DNA of 26,223 bases from a virus: IMG/VR virus record IMGVR_UViG_3300003267_000349, positions 1-26,223 of that record; one strand, given 5' to 3'. A program made the position numbers and the translations under genes. Of this stretch, positions 3,538 to 23,832 are shown in pieces; the first letter of the stretch is position 1; each line of letters opens with the position of its first letter. The notes below the pieces were generated by a model that saw only the letters and a program-made list of their open reading frames with translations, had not been told where the DNA came from and searched no databases.

Positions 3538-3570
3538 AAAGCCCGATCAGAAATGGTCGGGCTTTTTATT
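3538..3570. terminator. Bidirectional intrinsic terminator
   Basis: Arms aaagcccgatc (3538-3548) and ggtcgggcttt (3555-3565) pair over 11 positions with one G-U, a six-base loop, and a following T-rich tract. It sits between convergent genes, the coiled-coil gene (+) and the glycosyltransferase gene (-), and the A-run on the other side would serve transcripts coming from the right. This is the clearest terminator in the window. Confidence 0.88.
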
Positions 3571-4168
3571 TCCCAAACTCGGTGGTGCGGCTGTCGTACC
3601 GATGAAGGAATAGTGGCTCATCAATTTTGTGCCACGACTTCACCTCTGGCAATGCTTGCTTCAAGTAGAACCAATCCTCCGCTCCGTCATAATGTGCGGG
3701 GAAAGAAAATCGTCGGGCGAATCCGGTTCTCCAGCTCGACCAATGCCATGGCGGTCGTACGATGTCCGAATAGCGTCCGCCCGGTAAATGCTGGGGTTGT
3801 TCGCATTCTGCACCAAGCATCGTGCGTACCCGAAAAGGCGGCGATCCGTTAAATGTAACGGAAGCATCATAGGCGATCAGATCGTAATCGCCGGTCAGAT
3901 GGGGAAGCAACGCTGAGAAAAAATTGGGTGCCACGGAATCGTCATCGTCGCAGTGCATCAAGTAGCGGCCCGCAGCCATTTGCATCAGCGAATTTCGCTT
4001 TGATCCGAGATGGCGCGTTTTATTGTCCATTAGAACGAGCACTTCCATGCGCGGATCTGCCTGCGCTGTGAGTATGTCAATTAACTGGGTGAGCTTGGAT
4101 AGGCGCGCCGGAATACTCGGAATCAAAACCGAAAGCAGGATTTCGGGGGGCATAAAAGGAGTTTGCAT
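3566..4168 (-). CDS. Family-2 type glycosyltransferase (GT-A fold)
   Basis: About 200 residues on the minus strand. The sequence opens with the GT-A nucleotide-binding strand (SVLIPSIPARL), then LGSKRNSLMQMAAGRYLMHC followed by the metal/nucleotide-sugar motif DDDD at about 74-77, and later GAEDWF (Glu164-Asp165), the position of the GT2 catalytic acid. It should transfer a sugar from a nucleotide donor to an unknown acceptor. It resembles the glycosyltransferase at 12501-13244. It is the only minus-strand gene between two rightward blocks. Starts at 4153 and 4219 are also possible; 4168 and 4153 leave room for the divergent control region. Family call firm, acceptor unknown. Confidence 0.8.
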   Translation of the reverse strand: MQTPFMPPEILLSVLIPSIPARLSKLTQLIDILTAQADPRMEVLVLMDNKTRHLGSKRNSLMQMAAGRYLMHCDDDDSVAPNFFSALLPHLTGDYDLIAYDASVTFNGSPPFRVRTMLGAECEQPQHLPGGRYSDIVRPPWHWSSWRTGFARRFSFPAHYDGAEDWFYLKQALPEVKSWHKIDEPLFLHRYDSRTTEFGK

Positions 4169-4191
4169 AAAAATCTGGACAACCGCAAGCG

Positions 4192-4207
4192 TACAACTGA
4201 GTTTGTA
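4192..4207. promoter_or_regulatory. Possible operator, small inverted repeat
   Basis: TACAA at 4192-4196 and TTGTA at 4203-4207 form a perfect five-base dyad with a six-base spacer, just ahead of the Xre-type gene that starts at 4213 and beside the start of the divergent glycosyltransferase gene. Xre-type proteins bind such dyads and often regulate themselves. A dyad this short can occur by chance. Confidence 0.25.
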
Positions 4208-4212
4208 GCTTA

Positions 4213-4470
4213 ATGTCACTGCACGCGCTCCTCCAAGAAATCAAGGCTTTCGAAAAAAAACAGCAGGAGGATGTCGCTGCGGTAGAGCGCAAGTGGCGGG
4301 ATTTCGGTGAGACCGTTAGGCAGACAAGGAAGCAGCGTAATATCGCACTCGCCACCTTCTCGCGCAAACTCGGCGTCTCCAAATCCATGACCGGATTCCT
4401 CGAATCCGGCAAACGCCGCTGGAATTTAGGGATGGCAAAAAGAGCAGTAGAAATATTAACTAATGAATAA
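4213..4470 (+). CDS. Xre/Cro-type helix-turn-helix regulator (second)
   Basis: An 85-residue protein. Residues 1-30 are a charged helix (LLQEIKAFEKKQQEDVAAVE). Residues about 31-83 carry an Xre-type fold: FGETVRQTRKQRNIALATFS, then RKLGVSKSMTGFLESGKRRW with a typical recognition helix, then the closing helix. It likely binds DNA as a dimer, possibly the dyad just upstream. It is distinct from the regulator at 2102 and heads the block leading to the structural genes, so it may be a middle or late gene regulator; that is inference. Its stop overlaps the next gene by eight bases. Confidence 0.8.
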   Translation: MSLHALLQEIKAFEKKQQEDVAAVERKWRDFGETVRQTRKQRNIALATFSRKLGVSKSMTGFLESGKRRWNLGMAKRAVEILTNE

Positions 4471-5706: not shown

Positions 5707-6495
5707 ATGGCTGACAGTGAATCACAAGCCCCGATTGATGCGCCCCAAGGCGTCGTTATGCGCTGCTGCGTCACCTGTGGAGAAATAAAGCCAGAAACCG
5801 ATTTTTATTTCAAGGATGGCACGCGGATTAAGCGCAAGGAAAGCTGCAAGATTTGTGTGCGAATTAGGGTAAAGAAATTCTACACGGAAAATCCCGATCG
5901 TTTCGCTAAAAACACCCCGGAGGGAAAGGAGGCTTCGAAGAAAAAATGGCGTGAAGAATATTGGAAAAACCCGGATAAATACCGGAAAATAGCCTTAAAT
6001 TCATTCTACAAGAGACACGAATCAGCCCTGGCGAAACAGAGGGAAAATTACCATAAAGACCCCGCAAAATATGTAGCCCTAGCAGCCAAGTGGAATAAGG
6101 AGAACCCCGAAAGAGTAAAGGCATGGGCAGCGGCCAATCGAGAAAGAATTAATCTCTCCCAGAGAAAACACCGATTGAATTTTCCTGAGACGGGATTCAT
6201 TTCGCGCGCGAATCGGCGTGCACGAAAGTCCAGCAGTCCAGAGAGACTGAAAGCGGGAATTCGTGAAAGACTAATGATTGAACAGAAAGGATTGTGCCCA
6301 TACTGCAAGGCAGACCTTAATTCCGGGGTTAAGCATTTAGATCATTTGATCCCCTTGGCCAAGGGAGGGCGCCACTGCAACGCGAACATGCAGTTAACCT
6401 GCAAGCCTTGCAATCTTCGTAAGCAGGCCAAAGACCCAATTTTATTCGGCCGAGAAATGGGAATTTTTATACCGAGCACGCAGCTCGCAATCTAA
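5707..6495 (+). CDS. Zinc-finger/HNH endonuclease
   Basis: A 262-residue nuclease. An N-terminal zinc finger has Cys21-x-x-Cys24 and Cys47-x-x-Cys50. A long helical middle with repeated N-P-(D/E)-(K/R) units (NPDKY, DPAKY, NPERV) probably contacts DNA. The C-terminal HNH domain has Cys197/Cys200, Asp212-His213 in HLDHLIPLAKGG, Asn227 and Cys232/Cys235. This layout is typical of phage free-standing or homing nucleases and of packaging-linked HNH proteins. It ends one base before the portal gene, the slot where a terminase subunit often stands. The gene looks richer in A than its neighbours, consistent with later acquisition. Confidence 0.88.
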   Translation: MADSESQAPIDAPQGVVMRCCVTCGEIKPETDFYFKDGTRIKRKESCKICVRIRVKKFYTENPDRFAKNTPEGKEASKKKWREEYWKNPDKYRKIALNSFYKRHESALAKQRENYHKDPAKYVALAAKWNKENPERVKAWAAANRERINLSQRKHRLNFPETGFISRANRRARKSSSPERLKAGIRERLMIEQKGLCPYCKADLNSGVKHLDHLIPLAKGGRHCNANMQLTCKPCNLRKQAKDPILFGREMGIFIPSTQLAI

Positions 6496-9054: not shown

Positions 9055-10569
9055 ATGGCCGAACCCACACTTCCCGAAATCGCCCCGAATACCACGCCAA
9101 CCTCCAGTACGAGGCCAGCCGCTGCGCCGATCAGCCGTGAGCAGATGGCTGCGGAGCTGGGCAAGAGTCTGAAACCCGCCGGTGATCGTCCAGTTCCGCG
9201 ACAAGAGCCCGCGCGCGAAACCGTTCCAGATAAGCCCAAGGAATACGTTCCGAAAAGTCCGCAGGATCTTTCGAAAAATGCACCTACCGATTTCACTTCC
9301 GGGTTGCGCGATAAGGTGCTGAAAAAAGAGGAGCCATCGAAGCCAGAGCCAAAGGCCGAGGCCGAAAAAAAGCTGGAGGTTAAAAAACCCGCAGTTTCTG
9401 CCGACGATGCGGCCCCGCCCGAGAAGCCAAAGCACGATGAGGAAGTTCCAGAGGAACAGCGCCAAGTGATGCCGCATGACAAGCCGGACACGGCGCGGCG
9501 CATCAAAGCAATTCTCGCAGAATCCCGGAAGAAAGATGAAGCGATGGCCACGCTCACGAAAGAGCTGGAGGAAGCACGCAAAGCTGCTGTCGCGAAGCCC
9601 AGCGATGCGAATCTGGACGAGTTCACAAAACTCAAAGAAGAGCACGCCAAGGCGAGTGACGAACTGATAAAATTCCGTCGCCGATACGAAATCGACAATG
9701 ACGAGACGTTTAAGAAAACGTATGACGAACCGCTTTCGGCCGCAGAAAGCGCGATCGAGAACACGCTTAAAAAATACAATCTCGGTGACGCCACGCTGAA
9801 GGCGATTAAAGACGAAGGCGGGTTTGGAGCCTTCAGCCGTTCGATGAAGACGTTCCCGATTGTGCAGACCGATCCGGACACGGGCGAAAAAAAGACGATC
9901 CATATCACCGCCCAAGAGCTGGCGCGTAGCTGGCTAAACAATGGTCTCGCAGTCGCCGACGCCGAGTTCATCAAGTCCGCGGTAGGTAAGCAGGCGTTGC
10001 TGACGGAAGAAAAGAAATCAGCCACAACGCGCGCCATGGATGAAGCGAAGCAATTTTTTGAGACGCGCCAGAAGCAGATGGCAGAGGCGGGCGAAGCGCA
10101 AAAAAAGAAGGACGCGGAGATGTCCCAAGCCTACCAAATCTGGCTCAAATCCACGACCGAAACAACCGACTGGCTGAAGGATGAACCTATTCCTGAAGGA
10201 ACGCCTGAAGCAAAGCGTAAGCAAATTGAGGAACGCAACGAATTCAATAAACAGCTTCGCGACGGGTTGGCTGCGCATCCTAAGACACAGGAAGATTACC
10301 AGAAGTTGAAGCTGGAGTCGGCCGAGAGCCATCATTTGCGCCGCGAACTCGGATCGCGCGACGAGCGAATAAAGGCTTTGGAGGCTGAACTGGCCCGCGT
10401 GAAAGCCGGAACACGCACGACGTCCAAAGCGGGCTCGCTGCTCACGAATCAGGGCAAGGCGGAGCCGGAGGAGAAGAAGCCGGATTTGTCCAACCCAATG
10501 AAGTCACTGAAAGATCGTATGCGCGAGCGCATGCAATCCAGCAAGGGGAGCATTGAGGACGAAGGATGA
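9055..10569 (+). CDS. Scaffold-like coiled-coil protein
   Basis: A 504-residue, highly charged protein. Residues 1-150 are Pro/Lys/Glu-rich and probably disordered. Residues about 155-240 are coiled coil (AILAESRKKDEAMATLTKEL...), a compact middle follows (ATLKAIKDEGGFGAFSRSMK), and residues 330-450 are again helical. The basic C-terminus (MKSLKDRMRERMQ) resembles the capsid-binding end of phage scaffolding proteins. Between portal and capsid genes, scaffold is the expected gene. It is longer than P22 scaffold (303 residues). The two long frames on the opposite strand here are products of biased codon use. Function inferred from order and composition. Confidence 0.7.
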   Translation: MAEPTLPEIAPNTTPTSSTRPAAAPISREQMAAELGKSLKPAGDRPVPRQEPARETVPDKPKEYVPKSPQDLSKNAPTDFTSGLRDKVLKKEEPSKPEPKAEAEKKLEVKKPAVSADDAAPPEKPKHDEEVPEEQRQVMPHDKPDTARRIKAILAESRKKDEAMATLTKELEEARKAAVAKPSDANLDEFTKLKEEHAKASDELIKFRRRYEIDNDETFKKTYDEPLSAAESAIENTLKKYNLGDATLKAIKDEGGFGAFSRSMKTFPIVQTDPDTGEKKTIHITAQELARSWLNNGLAVADAEFIKSAVGKQALLTEEKKSATTRAMDEAKQFFETRQKQMAEAGEAQKKKDAEMSQAYQIWLKSTTETTDWLKDEPIPEGTPEAKRKQIEERNEFNKQLRDGLAAHPKTQEDYQKLKLESAESHHLRRELGSRDERIKALEAELARVKAGTRTTSKAGSLLTNQGKAEPEEKKPDLSNPMKSLKDRMRERMQSSKGSIEDEG

Positions 10570-10751
10570 AAATAAATATAGAAATCGAAGTGCAGGTGGA
10601 CGATTTTTCCGCGCCTATTTTTGAAGATGTTTCCGAGGCACTAAGGAAGCAGCTTCCGTACATCCATATTTCATGGAACGATCCGTGTTTGGGTCGCGTG
10701 GTGGGCGCTAAGATTATCGTAAACGAAATTCGCGAAGGGAACTGCTGTTAA
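10566..10751 (+). CDS. Small hypothetical protein
   Basis: A 61-residue protein that overlaps the scaffold-like gene as ATGA and has a purine-rich ribosome site (GAGGACGAAGG). Alternating hydrophobic residues at the start (MKINIEIEVQVDDF) and near the end (VGAKIIVNEI) suggest a small beta/alpha fold. It ends directly before the next ATG with no gap, so it is coupled to the HTH-glycosyltransferase gene. Function unknown. Confidence 0.6.
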   Translation: MKINIEIEVQVDDFSAPIFEDVSEALRKQLPYIHISWNDPCLGRVVGAKIIVNEIREGNCC

Positions 10752-11837
10752 ATGAAACTTGATCTCTACAAACTCGTATCCTCAAAGATTAAAGACCTGG
10801 GGATCGAAGGTGCCGCAGAATTCTTTGATGTTTCACCACTCACGATCAACTCTTGGAATATCGGCAAAACTGAGCCCAAGCTGAAGCAGATTCAGCGTGT
10901 CGTTGACGAGCTGCCTGACTACGTGCCTGAGCCCGATCCGGAGTGGCAGGAGCTGAAGAAGATCATGCCGGCCAAAAACTGGATGGCGATGGTCGAGGAA
11001 ATTCGCAAGGAGGAAGAAGCAAAGCCTAAGCAGCCAGTTCAGCTTCCGGGTGATCCCGTGCCTGCGCCCGCAGAGAACTGGGATGACGCACCGGCCGTTA
11101 CTCCCGTCGCCCAGAACGGCGCTGTAACGCTGCTCATGCCGATGATGGATGGTCTCGCCGCCGAGACATTCACGACGTTGGTTCGCGCTTGCAAACTCTA
11201 CGGCATGGAGAAAATCAGCATCATTCCGAAGTGGCGCACGCTGATTGTAGAAGCCCGCAATGATCTGGCTCAGATGGGGCTCAAGACCAATTCCGAATGG
11301 TTTATCTTCATCGACGCCGACGGCGTGTTCCCCTGTGGCTCAGGCGCTCTACTGAAGAAAATCGGTCTCAACCTACCAGAGCCGAAAGCGAGCCGGAATT
11401 TTATCGAACGGCTGATGTCGCATCCTTCGGACAAGCTTATTGTCGGGGCGCTCTATAAGGATCGCCGCGGTGGCACACGGGCACAATGCGAGCGCGGATT
11501 TCGTTCGGATCAAGAGAACTCGCGCCTGCTCGCGCTGTTCGATCCTGCGTCGAAAGGAACTGATGTGCTTGAGGAAAATGGATGGGTTGGATTCGCCGCG
11601 GTGCGTATTCACCGATCAGTTTTCGAAAAGATGATCGAGGCCGCGAAGCCCGGTGGTGTACTAGCAGAGATTGCGCCGCCGCCAGGACGCGAAGCTGAGC
11701 CATATGGTTTCTTCGACACGACCCGCGTTGCTCGCGGCGAAGACGTGAAATTCTGCCGGCGTGCGGGACAGATCGGGATTAAGACGTGGGTGGATGTGGG
11801 ATGTCTTTTGGGCCACTTTGGCGCCCGGATCTACTAG
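10752..11837 (+). CDS. HTH domain fused to a GT-A glycosyltransferase domain
   Basis: A 361-residue two-domain protein. Residues 1-53 resemble a helix-turn-helix unit (IEGAAEFFDVSPLTINSWNIGK) of the kind found in phage regulators. A charged, Pro-rich linker follows (about 55-120). Residues 125-361 are a GT-A glycosyltransferase: TLLMPMMDGLAAETF opens the fold, EARNDLAQ at 167-174 and the Asp-x-Asp motif in FIDADG (188-190) mark the sugar-nucleotide site, and GEDVKFCRRAG plus CLLGHFG near the end match this family. Sugar transfer is well supported; a DNA-binding role for the N-terminus is not proved, and it may serve for protein contact. It opens the modification cassette. Confidence 0.75.
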   Translation: MKLDLYKLVSSKIKDLGIEGAAEFFDVSPLTINSWNIGKTEPKLKQIQRVVDELPDYVPEPDPEWQELKKIMPAKNWMAMVEEIRKEEEAKPKQPVQLPGDPVPAPAENWDDAPAVTPVAQNGAVTLLMPMMDGLAAETFTTLVRACKLYGMEKISIIPKWRTLIVEARNDLAQMGLKTNSEWFIFIDADGVFPCGSGALLKKIGLNLPEPKASRNFIERLMSHPSDKLIVGALYKDRRGGTRAQCERGFRSDQENSRLLALFDPASKGTDVLEENGWVGFAAVRIHRSVFEKMIEAAKPGGVLAEIAPPPGREAEPYGFFDTTRVARGEDVKFCRRAGQIGIKTWVDVGCLLGHFGARIY

Positions 11838-11838
11838 C

Positions 11839-12504
11839 GTGAAGATTTTAGCTAAATTCCCCACCCGATCCCGCCCCCAGCGTTTCCTTTCCACGCTGAA
11901 GGGCTGGATTGAGAACGCGAAGAAGCCAGGTGACGTCACGTTTCTGGTCTCCTACGATCACGACGATGAGACGATGACCCCTCCGATTCTCGCGGCCACG
12001 CAAGGGCTGGCGTGCAAGGTGCGGTTGTTTCGTGGGGCGAGCAAGACGAAGATTCAGGCAATCAATGCAAACGTCAGCGAAATGATGGGGTGGGATGTGG
12101 TGCTGGTTGTAAGCGATGATTTCTTTTGCAGGCGAAAGGGATGGGACACGTTTATTTCGGAGAAAATGGAGCAGCATTTTCCGGATACGGATGGATCGTT
12201 GTGGATTTACGATGGATCGCAGCGTAAGATAAACACGCTCCCCTGTCTCGGCCACAAATACTATCGACGCACGGATTTTATTTATCACCCCGATTACAAA
12301 AGTTTTTACTGCGATAATGAGCAGACTGAAGTGGGCATGGCTCTCGGAAAACTCGCGTTCATTGACGAATCAATCGCATCGCACGAGCATCCCTGCTGGG
12401 GTGGCGGAATGAAGCAGGACGATCTTTACCGACGCAACAATGTGTACTGGCCGGAAGATCAGCGAACTTTTAATCGCAGGAAGGCCGCAGGATTCCCCAC
12501 ATGA
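11839..12504 (+). CDS. Glycosyltransferase (GT-A-like)
   Basis: A 221-residue protein starting at the GTG at 11839, one base after the stop of the previous gene; a longer form from 11761 would lie inside that gene. VKILAKFPTRSRPQRFLSTL is the first GT-A strand and helix; KTKIQAINANVSEM is followed by VVLVVSDDFF, where Asp93-Asp94 take the place of the usual DxD metal site. A second acidic cluster (CDNEQTEVG) and HEHPCWGG complete the pattern. It should transfer a sugar. It overlaps the next gene as ATGA, so the two enzymes are co-translated. Acceptor unknown. Confidence 0.75.
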   Translation: MKILAKFPTRSRPQRFLSTLKGWIENAKKPGDVTFLVSYDHDDETMTPPILAATQGLACKVRLFRGASKTKIQAINANVSEMMGWDVVLVVSDDFFCRRKGWDTFISEKMEQHFPDTDGSLWIYDGSQRKINTLPCLGHKYYRRTDFIYHPDYKSFYCDNEQTEVGMALGKLAFIDESIASHEHPCWGGGMKQDDLYRRNNVYWPEDQRTFNRRKAAGFPT

Positions 12505-13244
12505 TGACGCTCCCCTTATTTCTGCTCAGCAGCCAAGACGAATCGCACTTTGCGGCGTCCACTCTAAATGTAGGTGGCACTCCCCCAAAACTTTCAATTC
12601 TCATCGCCACGGTTCATAATCGCCAAAAGGAGTATCAAAAATTATTCGAGGAACTGGTGCGCCAAGGCGAAGGCAAGGAAATTGAGATTTGTGTGATCTG
12701 TGACGCGAAGGAAATTTCGATTGGCAAGAAGCGCCAAAAACTTCTTGAGCAAGCGAGGGGCGATTACGTTGCATTCATTGACGATGACGACTGGATTTCC
12801 GAAACCTACGTGGACGACATCCTGAAGGCATTGGAGCAACCATTTGATTGCGTCGGCTTCAAAATCACTTGCACCACGAACGGCCAAAATGAGCAATCTG
12901 CCATCGCAAGCATGCGGTATAAAAAATGGCAGGAGAACGTGGATGGCTACGCACACGCACGCTCTACTTACCACAAAACTCCACACAAACGCGAAATCGC
13001 CCTCAAAGTAGGTTTCCACGATGTCCGCTACGGCGAAGACCGGCCGTACAGCATGGGCCTGATGAATCACGTCGCGACAGAATATTTTATCGACAAGGTG
13101 CTGTATTTCTACCGCTACCGGACGAACGAGCCCTTCATGCAGAAATACGGGATACTTCCCCCGGCTCGTCCCGCTGCTTCTTCTCGACCAACCCCAAAGC
13201 ATGGAGGGAAAATCCGTCGGGATAAGAACGGGAGGCCGATTTGA
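12501..13244 (+). CDS. Family-2 glycosyltransferase (GT-A fold)
   Basis: A 247-residue enzyme. After about 30 residues the GT2 core begins (SILIATVHNRQKEY). IGKKRQKLLEQARGDYVAF precedes the DDDD motif (94-97), and YGEDRPYS carries the catalytic Glu-Asp (179-180). The C-terminal 30 residues are Pro/Arg/Lys-rich and probably flexible. The G-x-KR...G-x-Y...DDDD layout is shared with the leftward glycosyltransferase at 3566-4168, so the two look paralogous. The gene overlaps both neighbours (ATGA at its start, TTGA at its end) and belongs to the modification cassette. Confidence 0.85.
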   Translation: MMTLPLFLLSSQDESHFAASTLNVGGTPPKLSILIATVHNRQKEYQKLFEELVRQGEGKEIEICVICDAKEISIGKKRQKLLEQARGDYVAFIDDDDWISETYVDDILKALEQPFDCVGFKITCTTNGQNEQSAIASMRYKKWQENVDGYAHARSTYHKTPHKREIALKVGFHDVRYGEDRPYSMGLMNHVATEYFIDKVLYFYRYRTNEPFMQKYGILPPARPAASSRPTPKHGGKIRRDKNGRPI

Positions 13245-13897
13245 GGGGCGTCGCCTTCATCAATGTTGGTATCGGCGAATGGTACTGTCACGGAAGCGAT
13301 CGGCTGAAAGCTTCGCTGGAAGCCAACAATTTCTCCGGCGACATTCTGATCTGGAAAGACTGGCCGGAGATTCCTTTCCCGCGCGACGTCATCTATACCT
13401 GTAAAGCCGCAGCGTTTCAGATGGCGATCGACGCTGGGTATTCGACGATCATCTGGGGCGACTCGTCGATTTACGCGCGGGCTGACGTCACGCCTTTCGT
13501 GGCAACCGTCGTCGATAAAGGCATGTGGATTGGTCAGAGTGGCTATAATGGGGCGCAGACGTGTACGGATGCGTGCCTACGGTATTTCGGAGTGACGCGG
13601 GACCAAGCCGAGAAAATGCCCGACACGGCCACAGGGTTGTTTGGCGTGAACATGGATGCGCCATTTGCGAGGGAGTTCATCGAGACGTGGATCAAAGCCG
13701 CCAGAGAGGGCGCGTTCAACGGCTCACGGCATCACTCAGGACAGTCGGCGGACCGGCGCTTTAAGTTCGGACGCCAGGATCAGAGTGCGGCCACGATGAT
13801 TTGCGGGAAGATGGGGATTAAACTGAATGCGTTCAGCGAGTATGTGGGCTACGCATGGGACAAATATCCCTCGACATTTAAATGCCAAGGGATGTAG
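13241..13897 (+). CDS. Glycosyltransferase-like protein (nucleotide-diphospho-sugar transferase type)
   Basis: A 218-residue protein with a TTG start at 13241 that overlaps the previous stop as TTGA and is preceded by GGGAGG, one of the best ribosome sites in the window. CKAAAFQMAIDAGYSTIIWG leads into the acidic site IIWGDSSIYA, and the later segment RFKFGRQDQSAATMI matches the D-Q helix found in families that move sugars from nucleotide donors (GT8-like and related). The middle (GLFGVNMDAPFAREFIETW) is typical of the same enzymes. The family is recognised by motif only, so the exact class is open. It is part of the cassette. Confidence 0.6.
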   Translation: MRGVAFINVGIGEWYCHGSDRLKASLEANNFSGDILIWKDWPEIPFPRDVIYTCKAAAFQMAIDAGYSTIIWGDSSIYARADVTPFVATVVDKGMWIGQSGYNGAQTCTDACLRYFGVTRDQAEKMPDTATGLFGVNMDAPFAREFIETWIKAAREGAFNGSRHHSGQSADRRFKFGRQDQSAATMICGKMGIKLNAFSEYVGYAWDKYPSTFKCQGM

Positions 13898-13916
13898 ATA
13901 CTACCAAAATTGTAGC

Positions 13917-14588
13917 ATGAAAGACTATTCACAATCGGGTGAGCAAAAAATTATCCTCGATTACTTCAAGGCGCCACGTTGGACCAAACTCACGGGTACG
14001 TTCTTAGATATTGGCGCGAACGATGGATGCACGCTCTCTAACACCTACGCTCTCGCGCAGAACGGCTGGCGCGGCGTACTCGTGGAACCCAGCCCCGCCG
14101 CCTTCGCGAAGCTGCTCGATCTCTACGCGCCCAGTGTCTATGGTCAGACGCAAAATCTATCTCAGCTAAAAACTGGTTTCGCGACTCTGGTGCGCGCAGC
14201 GATCACCGACAAAAACGGCCCAGTTGATTTCTACGACAGTGGCACCCACCTAAAAAAAGGTGATGTAGCTTTGTTGTCCACAACTCGGCCGGAGGAAATG
14301 GGCCGCTGGAAGAAATCGGGCGAGCAGTTCACTAAGACGACAGTGCGTGGCATTACGTTCGAAACGCTGATGAAGGAGACGGGGGAGCGGCAGTTTGATT
14401 TTATTTCGATCGATGCGGAAGGGATGGATTATGAAATCCTGAAACAGATCGACCTAAAATCCGTCGGCTGCCAGCTCCTCTGCGTGGAGTACAACGCGAA
14501 GGACGCGGCGAAGTTCATCGCTTATGCGCGAGAGGCGGGGATGGGGCTGCTGCATCGCAACTACGAAAATTTACTTTTTTGCCGATGA
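13917..14588 (+). CDS. FkbM-type SAM-dependent methyltransferase
   Basis: A 223-residue enzyme. The ATG at 13917 is chosen because the upstream in-frame sequence lies inside the previous gene. TFLDIGANDGCTL (28-40) is the glycine-rich SAM-binding loop. VLVEPSP (54-60) ends the second strand with the acidic ribose contact, and FISIDAEGMDYEIL (162-175) is the hallmark FkbM motif. Family members O-methylate sugars, lipids or peptides. Here the enzyme directly follows several glycosyltransferase genes, so methylation of the added sugar is the natural inference. It overlaps the next gene as ATGA. Family call is strong. Confidence 0.88.
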   Translation: MKDYSQSGEQKIILDYFKAPRWTKLTGTFLDIGANDGCTLSNTYALAQNGWRGVLVEPSPAAFAKLLDLYAPSVYGQTQNLSQLKTGFATLVRAAITDKNGPVDFYDSGTHLKKGDVALLSTTRPEEMGRWKKSGEQFTKTTVRGITFETLMKETGERQFDFISIDAEGMDYEILKQIDLKSVGCQLLCVEYNAKDAAKFIAYAREAGMGLLHRNYENLLFCR

Positions 14589-14965
14589 AAACTTCTACTG
14601 AAATCAATCACATCTTCGCTGAAAAAATTGTCGGATGGTCCGATATCACATATCAATGCCCGTGGGAAAAATGCGTGTTCGGAGCGGGACAATTATTCGG
14701 CACAATCCATGGCCATAAAGCCCCAATTCCGAATTACGTGGAATCGGCAGACGCTTGTCTTCCTATTCTTTTTGAATGGTTTAATAGCGGGCGAGGCACA
14801 TTTTCTATTTCACCCATTAATTCGGAAGCCGCAAAATCAAAGGCGTGGTGCGTTGATATAGTTGATAACGAGCTTAATATTGGAAACGGACTTATTGGAG
14901 GAAATCTTCCTCTGATAATTGTGAGCGCGCTATTAAAGGCGCATGGCGTGGATACAGGGGAGTAA
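14585..14965 (+). CDS. ABA-sandwich-like phage protein
   Basis: A 126-residue protein starting at ATG 14585 (ATGA overlap with the methyltransferase); a TTG two codons upstream is less likely. The pattern INHIFAEKIVGW near the start, PNYVESADACLPILFEWF in the middle and PLIIVSALLKAHGV at the end matches the phage ABA sandwich domain (Phage_ABA_S), a small fold of unknown function common in tailed phages. It closes the modification cassette before the long gap ahead of the capsid gene. Confidence 0.7.
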   Translation: MKTSTEINHIFAEKIVGWSDITYQCPWEKCVFGAGQLFGTIHGHKAPIPNYVESADACLPILFEWFNSGRGTFSISPINSEAAKSKAWCVDIVDNELNIGNGLIGGNLPLIIVSALLKAHGVDTGE

Positions 14966-15407: not shown

Positions 15408-16658
15408 ATGGCAACCAATCAGTCGATTTGCGATTTCGATCCGTCAGACTTCGCAAGTGCTCTCGCAGAACAGAATTCGATCATCAAAGTGGCGATTACT
15501 CAGAACATTGCCTTCATGGACCCGTATTCCAACGTCGTTATGCAGGACACGTTCGAATCCGGCTACGGTGAACAGCAAATCTACGCCGCCTCCCCGCGCG
15601 TCGCGATGAACCAGTCTTCGGTTCGTCCGCAGTTCACGAACTTCGCCGCCTCTTGCCAACTCACGCCCACGCAGGCCAACTGGGGTAACGAAAAGTACGT
15701 TTCGACTCCCGGAGTTCTGGAAGGCCAGAGCCAGCCAATCTGCGTTCGTCAGCAATACTTCGTGGTTGAAAAGCTCCTCACGCAGTCCGTCGAATCTCTC
15801 AAGCAAGGCATCACTGACGTCGTCTCCTGGGACATTCGTGCACAGTTGCTCGATCTTTCCGGCATCAAGTTCGTCGTCCCCGCTCCTGGCACGCCACCCG
15901 AGGCTGGCTTCACCGGTTACGAGTGGGCGGTTTCGACCGACTTCAACGGCCAGCTCCCTGGCGGCCGTCTGACGTTCCAGTATGCGAAATGGCTTCGCGA
16001 CAAGATTTTCTATCAATTCCGCCCACCCGGTTTCGGCCGAGGCGCTGATACCTATGCGGTTCTCATCACCAGCTATGAGCTGAACGACGAACTCCGCACG
16101 GACGCTCCAGTGAACAACACGCTCATTGCGTCCACGACCGGTGGCTATTCCGACGGCCATGACGGCTTGTGGAATTACGCCTTCATTGATTCCAACTTCC
16201 GCGGGATCAAGTTTGCGATCGACCCAACCCCGCTGCGCTTCGACGTACTGGATGCCGACGGAAATCCGGACCTGATCGAAGTGTATGAGCAGGTTAACAC
16301 CAACGACACTGGCCAAACTTGGCGTACCCGGCCTCAGTGGGAAAACGCGAATTATGAAGTCGCTTTCATGATCTTCAGCAAGTCCGCGTTTGCCCGCCTG
16401 ACGCCCGAAGGCTTCACCGGTGAAGATGGCGCAAAGTGGCCAACCGGCATGTTCGGTGGCGAACTCGAATGGTTCAATCCGAAGGAAAGCTGCAATCGCT
16501 GGCAGGACTTCGGCTGGTTCCAGTTCCGCATCGTTCGCGCGATTCAGCCGATGGCTCCGCATTTCGTGGCGGCCATTCTGTCGAAGCGTTGCCGGGGGGC
16601 GTTTACGGACGCCACAGATATTTGCGTGGACATAACCGACGTCGATGTTTCAGTCTAG
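15408..16658 (+). CDS. Major capsid protein
   Basis: A 416-residue protein starting MATNQSICDFDPSDFASALA. Its composition (many Phe, Trp, Asn, Pro; few Lys), even spread of beta-rich segments (KFVVPAPGTPPEAGFTGYEW, then ELEWFNPKESCNRW) and strongly preferred codons are those of an abundant virion protein. The length fits HK97-fold capsid proteins of short-tailed phages. It follows the portal and scaffold genes, has its own structured leader, and is followed at once by a terminator, as expected for a heavily expressed unit. The C-terminal DVDVSV tail is acidic. No close family can be named by eye. Confidence 0.8.
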   Translation: MATNQSICDFDPSDFASALAEQNSIIKVAITQNIAFMDPYSNVVMQDTFESGYGEQQIYAASPRVAMNQSSVRPQFTNFAASCQLTPTQANWGNEKYVSTPGVLEGQSQPICVRQQYFVVEKLLTQSVESLKQGITDVVSWDIRAQLLDLSGIKFVVPAPGTPPEAGFTGYEWAVSTDFNGQLPGGRLTFQYAKWLRDKIFYQFRPPGFGRGADTYAVLITSYELNDELRTDAPVNNTLIASTTGGYSDGHDGLWNYAFIDSNFRGIKFAIDPTPLRFDVLDADGNPDLIEVYEQVNTNDTGQTWRTRPQWENANYEVAFMIFSKSAFARLTPEGFTGEDGAKWPTGMFGGELEWFNPKESCNRWQDFGWFQFRIVRAIQPMAPHFVAAILSKRCRGAFTDATDICVDITDVDVSV

Positions 16659-16693: not shown

Positions 16694-16698
16694 ATCAG

Positions 16699-17361
16699 TC
16701 AGTCCCAGTTTTCTATCTGGGGCTGACGTTTTCTCTCAACTGGGGTGTTGATGCAATCTTCAGCACTCCAGCCCATTTTCAGTCTTCCGTGAATTACGCC
16801 CACTCCCAGTCCAAGTTCTCTTTCCCATGCTCCAACGCATTGGGTTTTTCCGTTGTAAGTGAGAAGGACGGAGTTTCTTTTGTTTCCGCCTTGCGTGTTG
16901 TCGTCGGCCCAGCGGCAATTTTCCTTGGAGTAGCCGAGCTCATTTTTGATTCGATCGAGCGAGTGCTTGGGCGATGGGCGCGGACCCATATCCTCAAGAA
17001 AGTTTTTAAATCCATCGTCCCCTCGCCAGCGATCGCATACGGTAATTCCGCGAGCGCCGTAATCGACGTACCGAGGATTTTTGGGATTGTGACACCTTTG
17101 CTTCAGGCCGACCCACGTATCGTATCCGATCGGCCTGTCCTTGGTGACAATGTTCGGGTCTCGCTGAAGTCCCTCGTATTGGGACTCGTGGCGCAAGCAG
17201 CCGCACGATTTAATGTTGCCCGACTTGAGGTGGCCCGCAGTGCTGCTGTATTCTTTGCCGCACTCGCAGAGGCACACCCATCTCGTGGGTTTGATTTCTC
17301 CATCTCTACGCAGGACGGTAAGCCGTCCGAATTTTTGACCAGACAAATCCTGAAGTTTCAT
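16699..17361 (-). CDS. HNH/AP2-type homing endonuclease
   Basis: A 220-residue nuclease on the opposite strand to its neighbours. The N-terminal zinc ribbon has Cys30, Cys32, Cys34 (VCLCECG) and Cys53, Cys55 (SCGCL). The HNH core reads QRCHNPKNPRYVDYG, then VCDRW, LDRI (135-138) and NCRWA (148-152). The C-terminal part (YNGKTQCVGAWEREL, later GRLKMGWSAEDC) is the AP2-like DNA-binding unit usual in this family. These free-standing phage enzymes cut DNA and spread by homing. The start at 17361 is chosen to open at the conserved MKLQDLSGQKFGRLTV; an upstream start at 17415 is possible. Inverted placement between capsid and head-fibre genes points to insertion. Confidence 0.9.
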   Translation of the reverse strand: MKLQDLSGQKFGRLTVLRRDGEIKPTRWVCLCECGKEYSSTAGHLKSGNIKSCGCLRHESQYEGLQRDPNIVTKDRPIGYDTWVGLKQRCHNPKNPRYVDYGARGITVCDRWRGDDGFKNFLEDMGPRPSPKHSLDRIKNELGYSKENCRWADDNTQGGNKRNSVLLTYNGKTQCVGAWERELGLGVGVIHGRLKMGWSAEDCINTPVERKRQPQIENWD

Positions 17362-17379
17362 GACGTTGATTTTCCTAAC

Positions 17380-17432
17380 GACGTTGTGAGAAAAATACTG
17401 GCGATTGCGCCACAACGTCAGGGCGCATTTTT
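17380..17432 (+). terminator. Possible terminator with competing hairpin
   Basis: tgcgcc (17406-17411) and ggcgca (17422-17427) form a six-pair stem followed by TTTTT, a weak intrinsic terminator on the plus strand. A longer nine-base repeat, gacgttgtg (17380-17388) and cacaacgtc (17411-17419), would use the same bases and exclude it. The 243-base gap from 17362 to 17604 otherwise holds no gene. A regulatory switch is possible but unproved. Confidence 0.35.
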
Positions 17433-17604
17433 CGGGGAGCTACCCCTAGCCAGTGCCATCACTTCAAACTGATGACCTGACCGAATCAAACCTTTTCTGC
17501 ACGGTCCCGCGGATCACCTCACGAACCGCCTTTGAATTCTTCTTTGCCGGCCACGCCGGTTTAACAGACTCCGGAGAGACCGGGGAACGAAACAAATCAA
17601 AACT

Positions 17605-19393: not shown

Positions 19394-20362
19394 GTGTTCG
19401 TTTCGGACATCTACCCCGAAGCCAAGAGGGCATTTGCTGGCTGCGAAGAACCCGAAATTCTTCGCCGGTTGACGGACGCCGTAAGCTTGCTCGCGAATTC
19501 CGGAATTTTGGATGTGAACTTAGGCGAGATGGAACTTTGCGTGTGCGACGGCTGCGTAACCCTTCCGCGCGATGTCGGGACGGTGCTCGGCATTGACGTG
19601 TGCGGCCAACCGACGCTGCTCCAAGACCAGTGGTTCAAATACCACATCAACGGCCCTGGCACTTGCGGTGGATGTGGCGTGATTACCGAGATGGGCCAAG
19701 TCTGCACGTACAAAGACCCGGCAGAGCCGGCATATCTGATTGCGGAAGTTACGAGCGCTGCGGACAACAATAAAAAGCTGCGCGTGTTTGCGACGGACGT
19801 GAGCGGCAAAAAGATTTTCACGCCCGGTCCCGGAGGCACCCTACAGGAAGGTTTTCTGGTGCCGATGATTTTCGGTTTTCCTAAGCCGGCTCCCGGTGTT
19901 CCTCCGTTGGGTAAAATCTATCGCATCAGCCGCGATGAAACGAAAGACTTCGTGAAGCTCATCGCGGTGCGCGCCTCCGACGGCGTGAGTCAGACGCAGA
20001 TAGGGCACTACGAACCATCGGAAACGCTGCCAACGTATCGCCGCATCAAGGTGCCCCATAAGTCTTCAATTCTCGTGAAGTACAAGAAGGCTAATCTGGA
20101 GCTTCGCTCGCAGCGGGATTGGATCAATCTGGATAATAGGCAGGCGCTTTATCTGGCGTGCCGTGCGATCAAGTTTCAAAACGACGACAAGTTTTCTCAG
20201 GCGATCGCCGCTGAGGCGCAGGCCATTCGGATTTTGAATCAGGAAGCCGAATCCAAACTCCCGGCCGGACCGCGTGTGCCGCAGATAATTAATAATGTGT
20301 ATCGCGATGACGACACTCTTCTGGGCAACGGGTACACCAACGGCTGGGGAGGCTGGAATTAA
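19394..20362 (+). CDS. Head-to-tail adaptor / tail tube-like protein
   Basis: A 322-residue protein with a GTG start at 19394, one base after the preceding stop codon. It begins with a helical part (AKRAFAGCEEPEILRRLTDAVSLLAN) and then reads CVTLPRDVGTVLGIDVCGQP, DQWFKYHINGPG and YRRIKVPHKSS, an order I associate with a family of podovirus-like tail/adaptor proteins (equivalent in place to gp11 of T7-type tails). The end is helical (LYLACRAIKFQNDDKFSQA). It sits just before the large tail protein, which supports a role in the head-tail joint. Family recall is from memory; no alignment was run. Confidence 0.6.
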   Translation: MFVSDIYPEAKRAFAGCEEPEILRRLTDAVSLLANSGILDVNLGEMELCVCDGCVTLPRDVGTVLGIDVCGQPTLLQDQWFKYHINGPGTCGGCGVITEMGQVCTYKDPAEPAYLIAEVTSAADNNKKLRVFATDVSGKKIFTPGPGGTLQEGFLVPMIFGFPKPAPGVPPLGKIYRISRDETKDFVKLIAVRASDGVSQTQIGHYEPSETLPTYRRIKVPHKSSILVKYKKANLELRSQRDWINLDNRQALYLACRAIKFQNDDKFSQAIAAEAQAIRILNQEAESKLPAGPRVPQIINNVYRDDDTLLGNGYTNGWGGWN

Positions 20363-23300
20363 TGGTCGCCGATCCTTCAGAACCTAAAGATTACGTTGCT
20401 GGAAGCTCCAGCCTTGTGATGGGGAGTGATAGCTACTCATCGCCCACAGAGTTGGGGGATATGGAATATGTGATGGGGCAGAATGTGACATGCCGCGGCG
20501 GAATCGTTCAAACTCGCCCAGGATCGAAGTCTCACTATTGCATGCCCGATGGGAATCTTCAGGGATTTAAAGTTTTCATTCCTGACAATGGAGTTGCCCA
20601 TCATGTTTTCGCGGTGGATGGAAATATCTATGTTTCGGCAGCTCCATTCACAAGTTACCGACGGCTCTGGAATTTAAAGTTTTCAAAGACGGCAAAATAT
20701 GTGGCTTGGGCGGTGTGTCTCAAAAGCACCGATTACGACAATTCTGGAAATTTGATCGTTCTGGATAAGCCTTATTCGGTGCTTATAATCCAAGATGGAC
20801 TCACGCGCGCGGGCTATTGGGATGGAGGAAATTCAGGGCACCTCAATCCTGCCTCGGCGCCATTTCCCGACAACACTGACATTGTTCCTGGGTATCAAGA
20901 AACCCCGATAGGGCTGTGGATGATCTGGAGTGGCAACCGCCTTTGGGTGAGTCGCGGCAATCAAATTTTCGCGGGTGACATAGGCAATCCGCTGAAGTTT
21001 ACGGAAACCCTTTATCTGAACGAGGGCCGAGCATTTAATCTGAGCGGGCCATGCAACGGAATGATCGAAGTCCCGGCCGATGCAGCAGGAGCAAAAGGGT
21101 TCATCGCTTTCACCGAAACCGATGGTACGCTGTTCGCCTCTTATATTCAGGATCGGACAACTTGGCTGGCCACTCCGCTTTTCCAAAATACGATTTTGCC
21201 CCAGATTGGATGCGTGGCACCGCGCTCGCTTGTAACGCAATATGGGCTGAACTGGTGGTTTGGTCCTCGTGGATTCACGAATATCAATTCTGCGCTTCGC
21301 CAGAACATCACGAGTAGGATCGATTACCAGGACAACGAAATGTTTTCCTCGAAAGCATATCTCGGTCCCGATCTTTCTGGAATCTGTGCGAGCTTCTACG
21401 AGAACTATCTTCTCGTCTCAGTTCCAAGTTGCGATGTGAGAAATCGCCATACGTGGGTTTTGGATCAAGCGCCGTTTGAAAACAATGCCCCGGCATGGCC
21501 CGGATTTTGGACGGGATGGCGCCCGGTGGAATGGAGCCGGGGAATCATTAATGGATCTGAAAGGATATTTCTTGCGTCCGTGGATTACGACGGTAAAAAT
21601 CGGGTGTGGGAAGCGATGCTGTCTGAAAAAACTGACAATGGATGCCGAATCACCTGCTATGCTCAATTGCGTGATCACGCCGCGGGGAATCTCGGACAAA
21701 AGAAATACGATTGGAGTAAGTTCTTCCTTTCCCAGATTTATGGGGAAGTGGATTTGAATGTGTACGTCGCATCCACGAAGGGTGCGTATCAGTTGCTCAA
21801 AAATTACCACATCGTCGCCACCGAGGGACAGATTTTCGCGGATACTGAATACTCTGAAAGCGGACCTTTGATGATGGGGAACCGTGTGCAGTCTCGCACG
21901 ATTAGAACGCCCTCTGATCCCGATGCCAGTGACTGCAATGCCTGTGGCGTCGAGAGCAAGGAAGGTAATATGATAGATTACGCTTTCACGCACTTGCTCG
22001 CGTGGTCCGGACAGATGGGGATAAAAGCATATCAGATGCATATGCGCGAATCACCGGAGCGGTTTGATGGTGATTGTGAAGAGCCGGAAGTGGGGCCTCT
22101 CGCTCTTAATGCGGCAGGTTGCTCCGTACGGGGTCTCTTTGTTGATAGCGGACCATTTCAAAGTTTCACTGGATCGGCTGATGGCGTTGGCGCAACGCGC
22201 AATGGGGGAACTGCCTTTGTTCGACGGGAATCTCGATCCGTAATTTCCCAAGAAAACGCTGATGAACTGGCTAAGTGCGCGGTACAGAAAACCATCGCGT
22301 ACTTACAGGACAAGGATGTTTTGACGGGCGTTTATGGGTCAGGGGAAGCGGAGATCGGTTCGGGCACCTATCTCGTGGTGGAGGCCCCCTTCGAAGAGGA
22401 ACCTGTTGTCGTTGTTCCTTATGACGTTTTTGCACGCTTCCGAAACAACATTCCGAGTGGTGAGCTGTTCGAATTGGCCACCGGAATAAACGAGTTCGAC
22501 ATTCTGTTTCAGGACGGATTTTATTATCTTTTCCACGATGACAAAACACAAACGGTCATCCGTAAGGCATCCACGATATTGGGGCTGCAAAGTGCGGGCG
22601 CAATTATTGGAACTGCTTCAGGCCGATACCCGGCGGCTATAAAAGTTGGCTCGGTATGGCATCTCTGGACGTGGGATCAACCCAATAACATTAGTAAGCA
22701 TTACACGGGCAGTTTCCCTCAAGGCCCCTATACTTTCAGTGATTCACTTCCCTTGAATTATGCCGATTTCGCGGTCACGCTTTTCAATGACGGGATTTAC
22801 TACGGTTGCTACAAAGATTTAACATCGGCGCCTTATCGCGTCGGAATCATGATGGCAAACGACCCCTCGGGGCCTTGGACAGACTTAGGAAAGACTTTCC
22901 CTCCTACTGTTCCATTGTGGTATGCAGAAGAGCAAGCCGATCCCTCGGTGTTTCAGATTTTCGGAGTCCGGTATATATTGTTCGCCGCCTTCGATGGGAT
23001 TTTTCAACGATGCGCGCTTTGTATTCTGAATGAAGATATGACGGTAAAACACCCTCCTGTTGTCATTCGTGATCCCATCGCGTCGTGGGAACAGAACAAT
23101 GGCAGTCCGAAGGTTTTCAATCCGGTTTGGCTGAACAGCCCAGAACTTCCCAATCAGGACAAAATTTTCTACGCCCAAAATCCCAATGCGGCGGTTCCTG
23201 CCGGATGGGGCTATCTTGCCAAAGGACCGGCGCCGCAGGACGGTCGAGAATTCTTGGATTTAACCCGTCTTGATTTTGTCACGGGGTATGATGTGGCGAC

Positions 23301-23832
23301 TGGTATATCATATAACTTTTATGGAACCGCGTCCATTGTTGGTCAGGCCCTTGTTACCACTACCATGCCAGGGGGACTCTATGGGTTTACTAACCTTTTA
23401 GATGTATCTGAATTCACGATTTTTGTTGATGCTCAGCCATCAACGTTGATCGCCGATTACCAGCTTTTGATTCGGCTTTCCACGCTCAATCCCGTGGTTA
23501 ATCCCATCGTGGCCATATGGATTGATCCCACCGGACATGCCTATTGCGAGATTCACGACACGGCCGGAACGCACAATTTATCCCTCACCGGAACCACCGT
23601 TATGGTCAATGGATCGCGCTATAAAATCGGCCTCAAACTTGTGGGCGGAACGGCGCGATTGTATGTTAATGGATCGATCGAAGCTTCCGGCGCATATTCG
23701 GTTCCCGTGATTGGACTGGGAGAATGGTCGGTCGCGAATAAGAAAGGCAAGACGGCCAGCGCTAGTCAGCAATTCGCAGGCACGATCCGTCAAGTGTTCG
23801 CAACTGAAGGAGACGTTCCACTGCCATCATGA
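20362..23832 (+). CDS. Large tail protein with GH43-like and lectin-like C-terminal domains
   Basis: A 1156-residue protein, TAATG-coupled to the adaptor gene. The N-terminal part carries the signature QNVTCRGGIVQTRPGSK (about 40-56), typical of podovirus tail nozzle proteins (T7 gp12-like), followed by repeated beta-strand units to about residue 650. From about 690 to 930 the sequence changes to a propeller-like pattern (DILFQDGFYYLF, HLWTWDQPNN, GIYYGCYKDLTSAPYR, GPWTDLGKTF) like GH43-type glycan-binding or glycan-cleaving propellers. From about 960 to the end it looks like a LamG/concanavalin lectin (VSEFTIFVDAQ, ARLYVNGSIEASG). Likely both tail hub and receptor-binding or depolymerase protein. 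Confidence 0.75.
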   Translation: MVADPSEPKDYVAGSSSLVMGSDSYSSPTELGDMEYVMGQNVTCRGGIVQTRPGSKSHYCMPDGNLQGFKVFIPDNGVAHHVFAVDGNIYVSAAPFTSYRRLWNLKFSKTAKYVAWAVCLKSTDYDNSGNLIVLDKPYSVLIIQDGLTRAGYWDGGNSGHLNPASAPFPDNTDIVPGYQETPIGLWMIWSGNRLWVSRGNQIFAGDIGNPLKFTETLYLNEGRAFNLSGPCNGMIEVPADAAGAKGFIAFTETDGTLFASYIQDRTTWLATPLFQNTILPQIGCVAPRSLVTQYGLNWWFGPRGFTNINSALRQNITSRIDYQDNEMFSSKAYLGPDLSGICASFYENYLLVSVPSCDVRNRHTWVLDQAPFENNAPAWPGFWTGWRPVEWSRGIINGSERIFLASVDYDGKNRVWEAMLSEKTDNGCRITCYAQLRDHAAGNLGQKKYDWSKFFLSQIYGEVDLNVYVASTKGAYQLLKNYHIVATEGQIFADTEYSESGPLMMGNRVQSRTIRTPSDPDASDCNACGVESKEGNMIDYAFTHLLAWSGQMGIKAYQMHMRESPERFDGDCEEPEVGPLALNAAGCSVRGLFVDSGPFQSFTGSADGVGATRNGGTAFVRRESRSVISQENADELAKCAVQKTIAYLQDKDVLTGVYGSGEAEIGSGTYLVVEAPFEEEPVVVVPYDVFARFRNNIPSGELFELATGINEFDILFQDGFYYLFHDDKTQTVIRKASTILGLQSAGAIIGTASGRYPAAIKVGSVWHLWTWDQPNNISKHYTGSFPQGPYTFSDSLPLNYADFAVTLFNDGIYYGCYKDLTSAPYRVGIMMANDPSGPWTDLGKTFPPTVPLWYAEEQADPSVFQIFGVRYILFAAFDGIFQRCALCILNEDMTVKHPPVVIRDPIASWEQNNGSPKVFNPVWLNSPELPNQDKIFYAQNPNAAVPAGWGYLAKGPAPQDGREFLDLTRLDFVTGYDVATGISYNFYGTASIVGQALVTTTMPGGLYGFTNLLDVSEFTIFVDAQPSTLIADYQLLIRLSTLNPVVNPIVAIWIDPTGHAYCEIHDTAGTHNLSLTGTTVMVNGSRYKIGLKLVGGTARLYVNGSIEASGAYSVPVIGLGEWSVANKKGKTASASQQFAGTIRQVFATEGDVPLPS

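Follow-up and report, generated by a model that had tools for sequence, protein, structure and literature searches.

The locus considered here raises the question of why a set of sugar-modifying enzymes should be encoded within the head operon of a virus, and whether their products act on the virion, on the host surface or on the viral DNA. The window, i.e., the whole stretch of 26,223 nucleotides analysed in this work, comprises positions 1-26,223 of a 44,568-base virus record, the virus presumably being a tailed phage. A first-pass annotation of this DNA had proposed a cassette of four glycosyltransferase-type genes and an FkbM methyltransferase gene, involved in the stepwise building of a methylated glycan.

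The cassette and its enzymes

Positions 10752-14588 of the window are occupied by five tightly packed genes, g1 to g5, lying between a scaffold-like gene and a probable capsid gene (Table 1). The labels of the two bordering genes are putative, being derived from gene order, length and conservation in two related contigs, L001 and L004. In Pfam and PHROGs the scaffold-like gene had no informative family match, and the capsid-like protein and the product of the 61-aa ORF had no family match; the capsid and portal proteins found no match among phage records, and a search of solved structures based on the capsid alignment yielded no informative result. Starting at the scaffold-like gene and ending at the 128-aa gene, the successive intergenic distances are -4, 0, 1, -4, -4, 19 and -10 bases, so that this stretch can be read as a single, closely coupled block, and 442 bases then separate the 128-aa gene from the capsid-like gene. 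The near-overlapping junctions inside the head operon, described in the first-pass annotation, are thus confirmed (-4 to 19 bases between g1 and g5), with the scaffold and capsid labels inferred as above. An HNH endonuclease gene directly follows the capsid gene, and a large protein of the window shows a weak GH43-like match. Searches for tRNA genes and Rfam families gave no match, and promoter-like sites were not more frequent than in shuffled sequences.

Table 1. Coordinates of the cassette genes, their borders and a related gene in the window
Feature	Position	Strand	Assignment and evidence
Extra g3-family GT2 glycosyltransferase, not part of the cassette	3566-4219	-	PF00535, E=8e-7; phrog_14775, E=3.8e-22; 26% identity to g3, E=6e-16
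Scaffold-like gene (504 aa), upstream border	9055-10569	+	Follows portal-like gene; L004 homologue, 28% identity, E 5e-23
61-aa ORF	10566-10751	+	Overlaps scaffold-like gene and abuts g1
g1	10752-11837	+	HTH (residues ~1-53) joined to GT-A-like domain (~125-361); DxD at D188/D190
g2, glycosyltransferase	11839-12504	+	GTG start; phrog_14945 (glycosyltransferase), E=8.8e-13; conserved S-D-D motif
g3, GT2-family glycosyltransferase	12501-13244	+	PF00535, E=1.3e-11, 45.1 bits (cut-off 23.3)
g4, predicted GT-A-fold protein	13241-13897	+	TTG start; predicted structure
g5, FkbM-family SAM methyltransferase	13917-14588	+	PF05050, E=1.1e-17, 65.1 bits (cut-off 22.7)
128-aa ORF	14579-14965	+	Overlaps g5 end; homologue at L001:10-360, 30% identity, same overlap in L001
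Probable major capsid protein (416 aa), downstream border	15408-16658	+	73% identity to L001, 36% to L004; gene order shared

All five cassette genes have homologues and conserved motifs and are therefore regarded as real genes. Their assignment as four glycosyltransferase-type genes and an FkbM gene holds, being supported by Pfam for g3 and g5, by PHROGs for g2, by a structural model for g4 and, only suggestively, by GT-A-like matches for g1. None of the five products contains a membrane-spanning stretch (0/5), and no gene for donor-sugar synthesis was found within the cassette, so the donors would be supplied by the host.

The g1 protein matches phrog_1574 (E=1e-7), to which no function has been assigned. 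The HTH fusion ascribed to one gene of the cassette was corroborated for g1, as its N-terminus aligns to an HTH_3-like domain of the L004 homologue (E=3e-4) and is modelled as confident helices; in that homologue PF01381 itself scored below the cut-off (E=5e-4). The DxD motif is invariant across 13 aligned sequences. Foldseek related the g1 model to GT-A enzymes at an E-value of 4e-6, with TM scores of at most 0.38 of the query length and a model pLDDT of only 68. The fold matches include LH3 and COLGALT1 (collagen hydroxylysine glycosyltransferases) and polypeptide GalNAc transferases, all with query TM below 0.4; these enzymes act on protein side chains, a hint from the model that the glycan could be started by g1.

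The start of g2 was placed at its GTG codon, a longer reading frame from position 11761 overlapping g1. Among named proteins, Streptomyces phage glycosyltransferases come closest to g2 (25-27% identity); a peptide-pattern scan returned no relatives of g2, which surfaced only via g4. In g3 the D-x-DD motif is invariant in four homologues, and relatives lack a counterpart of the N-terminal ~28 and the C-terminal ~30 residues. The g4 protein belongs to no sequence family of Pfam or PHROGs. It carries the W-x-D-x-S and RQDQSAA motifs, invariant in four phages, and is predicted to have the GT-A fold: its model (pLDDT 83, built from a three-sequence alignment) had 218 PDB matches at E<=0.001, the top ones being GT-A enzymes, with domain 1 of PBCV-1 A064R among them (E ~4e-6), and its best match in BFVD was an uncharacterised phage protein (TM 0.81). 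The GANDG motif of g5 is invariant in four homologues, and identity among the g5 proteins of the window and of contigs L041, L051 and L002 amounts to 39-49%.

Relatives of the head genes and of the cassette

A related capsid-like protein was detected in just two contigs, L001 and L004 (the latter also as L038). L001 begins directly before its homologue of the 128-aa gene, and its initial 19 bases close with a Tyr-Cys-Arg-stop sequence that overlaps the start of the gene behind it, an arrangement shared with the window; this remnant is compatible with the presence of an FkbM gene there, being too short for proof. Besides the scaffold homologue (Table 1), L004 encodes homologues of the window portal (38%) and capsid (36%) proteins. 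Its scaffold-to-capsid row opens with a g1 homologue (40% identity), which occupies the corresponding position and shares the HTH fusion. This is followed by genes for an HNH protein, a GT9-like protein, two SAM methyltransferases, a GT32-like protein and a GT2 enzyme, and by another three genes without assignment; g2-g5 were not detectable in this slot. Both L004 and the window thus hold glycan genes there, i.e., the slot is kept, g1 is constant and the other content is exchanged. The close relatives are all metagenomic contigs of unstated completeness, hence absences from them carry little weight.

A scan with g4 led to L041 (and L040), and then to L047 and L051. In these contigs, which belong to phages with unrelated head proteins, g2, g3, g4 and FkbM are grouped, with 33-50% identity to the window. 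In L041 the order is g2-g3-g4-methyltransferase-FkbM-GT-GT25 (46, 50, 47 and 48% identity to window g2, g3, g4 and g5, respectively), and the cassette lies downstream of a portal gene (phrog_7376) and immediately upstream of scaffold-like and capsid-like genes. No relation was detectable between the capsid-like proteins of L041 and the window, and G+C content is 35% in L041 as against ~50-57% around the window cassette. L051 has five adjacent genes in the order g2-FkbM-g3-g4-methyltransferase. L047 has g2-g3-g4-methyltransferase, with no FkbM gene in that 15-kb record; the g2 proteins of L047 and L051 are 36 and 33% identical to that of the window. Both contigs share structural genes with L041, and their cassettes are convergent with, and outside of, the structural operon. 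Being kept in the window, L041, L047 and L051, the set has been retained in two or more head-gene lineages that are unrelated to each other; four distinct phages carry this unit in the collections searched.

The first-pass annotation had named beforehand, as evidence against its reading, a scattering of the genes in relatives away from any virion context. This was mostly not seen, since g2-g3-g4 stay together with FkbM and/or the second methyltransferase beside structural genes in L041, L047 and L051; on the other side, the convergent position outside the operon in L047 and L051 departs from the arrangement of the window.

In contrast to the other four genes, g1 lies outside the transferable unit and remains with the head genes, as in the window and L004. 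A search with FkbM additionally revealed L002 and L003, in which a larger sugar cluster of nucleotide-sugar enzymes, glycosyltransferases, methyltransferases and two FkbM genes is followed by a gene whose 810-aa product contains a very long Ser/Thr repeat, and by tail-like genes. That protein, recognised by eye only, is a plausible O-glycan acceptor.

Comparison with known glycosylation systems

The nearest precedent in layout is found in Cluster O mycobacteriophages, for which Firecracker, Catdawg and Dylan (records L052-L054) were compared. Their gene order is portal, O-methyltransferase, three glycosyltransferases, protease and capsid (PMC4351075), as also seen in L052, and modification of the capsid by these genes was proposed in 2015 on the grounds that few capsid peptides were seen by mass spectrometry (PMC4351075). 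The Cluster O genes (gp35-gp38 in Corndog) resemble the window cassette in combining a methyltransferase with glycosyltransferases in overlapping genes of the head operon, in the portal-capsid interval. They differ in gene families: g2-g5 gave no profile match to Firecracker gp33-gp36 at E<0.1, and the Cluster O methyltransferase is not recognisably FkbM and was not matched by the g5 profile. Moreover, a capsid maturation protease separates the Cluster O cassette from the capsid gene, and no HTH fusion is annotated there.

Two publications cite more recent work in which glycans were reported to occur on the capsid and tail tube of mycobacteriophages, including Che8 and Corndog, and to shield the particles from antibody (PMC12363180; PMC12619734). 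In the former, Che8 gp110 and Corndog gp38 are given as indispensable to virion glycosylation, which is described as demonstrated among phages for only a few mycobacteriophages (PMC12363180). The clusters Che8 gp108-gp110 and LittleE gp15-gp21 are related to the window cassette through g3, the profile of which matched LittleE gp15 (E=7e-43) and Che8 gp108 (E=1e-36), so that homology, in addition to layout, connects the cassette with virion glycosylation. Che8 gp110, considered as another relative of g3, proved to be unrelated to it. The glycosyltransferase row of LittleE sits directly after the capsid gene, whereas the Che8 cluster lies near the genome end, distant from the head genes. In contrast to the window, no FkbM is annotated in the Che8 and LittleE clusters, and g2 and g4 lack a clear counterpart there; across these and the Cluster O clusters, no homologue of g2, g4 or g5 was recognised. 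The last glycosyltransferase of L041, GT25, is homologous to Che8 gp110 and Firecracker gp36, and no member of the gp110/gp38 family was recognised in the window cassette.

In the chlorovirus system PBCV-1 A064R/A061L, a capsid glycan is built by virus-encoded glycosyltransferases, followed by methylation of a sugar (PMC9614988). The likeness to the window extends to this combination of activities and to the g4 fold, which corresponds to A064R domain 1, a resemblance of fold only (~11% identity) and one common to many GT-A enzymes. PBCV-1 differs as a eukaryotic virus with three domains in one protein and an N-linked glycan.

The description of the cassette as an undescribed system is accordingly to be narrowed. 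The g4 family had no match among annotated phage records or in the genome collection scan, and the novelty lies in the HTH fusion, in the FkbM cap and in this particular combination of genes; glycosyltransferase and methyltransferase genes inside a head operon were already known, and so was this kind of system.

A putative pathway of virion glycosylation and its alternatives

We consider it probable (roughly 65%) that g1-g5 constitute a cytosolic pathway, produced together with the head proteins, which places a short O-methylated glycan on a virion protein, i.e., a capsid, decoration or tail protein. One glycosyltransferase, perhaps g1, would attach the first sugar to the acceptor protein; g2, g3 and g4 would lengthen the glycan from host nucleotide sugars; and g5 would methylate a sugar hydroxyl, this order of action being a guess. 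The g3 paralogue on the minus strand may supply a further step. The most likely benefit would be a change in binding at the virion surface, of or by the virion. A soluble protein target agrees with the lack of membrane-spanning stretches in g1-g5, and glycosyltransferase genes lie beside or inside the virion operon in the window, L004 and L041. The virion proteins contained no clear candidate for a Ser/Thr-rich acceptor stretch and no acceptor motif; the capsid C-terminus has 4 Ser/Thr among its last 20 residues. Counted against modification of the virion are the convergent cassettes outside the structural operon in L047 and L051, the failure to recognise the essential gp110/gp38 family in the window cassette, and the lack of a match between the window FkbM and the Cluster O O-methyltransferase.

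Serotype-modifying phage glycosyltransferases are known (PMC12619734), and the weak GH43-like match indicates that surface sugars may matter to this phage; the cassette could alter a glycan of the host surface, be it LPS, capsule or S-layer, late in infection, e.g., against trapping of progeny on debris or against other phages. We nevertheless regard this as unlikely: the cassette includes no membrane-anchored transferase, flippase or polymerase-like gene, its products have no membrane span, and its site in the head operon, the repeated link to head genes and the homology of g3 to virion-glycosylation clusters fit less well with a host target. There is very little to be expected of the notion that the genes are accessory cargo that landed in the operon and is drifting, with no coordinated action on virion or envelope. 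The scaffold-capsid content is indeed wholly different in the window and L004, g1 excepted, and HNH endonuclease genes, typical of insertion, occur in the L004 row and after the window capsid gene; yet the joint persistence of four genes in unrelated phages, at 33-50% identity and with their motifs conserved, argues for long selection as a set.

Least probable in our estimation, with only a slight chance, is the decoration of phage DNA bases, with g1 recruited to DNA through its HTH. The HTH-like domain would suit this role, and DNA-hypermodifying viral glycosyltransferases are known (cited in PMC12619734). However, g1 is absent from the transferable unit g2-g5, and the thymidylate-synthase-type hydroxymethylase (PF00303) was found in 0 of 5 records, which are possibly incomplete, while the control was positive in 9 of 14 genomes. 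A search for TET/JBP (PF12851) gave no match in the records, but says little, as its positive control was silent too.

Taken together, a stepwise-built methylated glycan on a virion or host target, made with the virion, as the first-pass annotation had it, is supported as the likeliest of several readings and has a precedent with experimental support in Cluster O. The recurrence of g2-g3-g4-FkbM in otherwise unrelated phages further suggests a transferable kit for methylated-sugar decoration of virions. A bolder version, which we put forward tentatively and hold to be possible but doubtful, is that a module of g2-g3-g4 with FkbM and/or the second methyltransferase moves between unrelated tailed phages, inserts beside head genes and gives different capsids the same methylated glycan, the g1 fusion staying with one head lineage as a first step or a timing switch.

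The cassette provides a first functional context for two unassigned groups of phage proteins, phrog_1574 and the g4 family, and offers a compact enzyme set for testing what such sugar coats do. The preservation of the set, with its methylating cap, across unrelated phages suggests that sugar decoration of virions is a traded trait of environmental phages.

Glycosyltransferase-type genes within and outside the proposed sugar-modification cassette

The fusion of an HTH-like domain to a putative glycosyltransferase domain (g1) is kept in two distant phages, namely that of the window and L004 (a contig with a capsid-like protein 36% identical to that of the window), immediately 3' of the scaffold-like gene, and the HTH is missing from all remaining aligned g1 homologues. 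A further GT2 gene, encoded on the strand opposite to the cassette, lies beyond its reported span; sequence comparison of its product with g3 revealed 26% identity.

Coordinates of the features discussed
Feature	Sequence	Position	Strand	Remarks
GT2 glycosyltransferase, g3 family	window	3566-4219	-	phrog_14775
HNH/endonuclease VII-like gene	window	5707-6495	+	phrog_1035, E=9e-21
putative HTH-glycosyltransferase fusion (g1)	window	10752-11837		homologue in L004, 3757-4677
128-aa ORF	window	14579-14965	+	no family; overlaps FkbM (g5) stop
HNH endonuclease	window	16699-17415	-	phrog_374, E=4.6e-60
1156-aa protein	window	20362-23832	+	weak GH43 glycosidase-like stretch, weak lectin-like C-terminus
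810-aa protein and adjoining phage sugar cluster	L002	13256-15688 and 3434-13002

Genes around the head genes

The 128-aa ORF has a counterpart at the equivalent position in L001 (a contig with a 73% identical capsid-like protein), where a 259-aa HNH-like ORF separates this counterpart from the capsid gene. In the window, a hairpin resembling a terminator (16698-16727) follows the capsid-like gene, and the HNH gene comes directly after both. Only about 300 bases occupy the site of the HNH gene in L001; the plus-strand ORF found there in the window (16789-17472) is probably spurious. The endonuclease VII-like gene immediately precedes, on its 5' side, the portal-like gene.

Tail-spike-like protein and a possible glycan acceptor

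The 1156-aa protein shares 71% identity with L001, limited to its first ~670 residues, a pattern that fits a tail spike whose tip has been swapped; its GH43-like stretch (E=7e-6) fell under the cut-off. The larger cluster of L002, a contig retrieved via FkbM, comprises nucleotide-sugar dehydrogenase-like, dehydratase-like and asparagine-synthase-like genes, glycosyltransferases and two FkbM genes. The 810-aa protein adjoining it, in which Ser/Thr residues number in the hundreds and are arranged in tandem, is a possible O-glycan acceptor.
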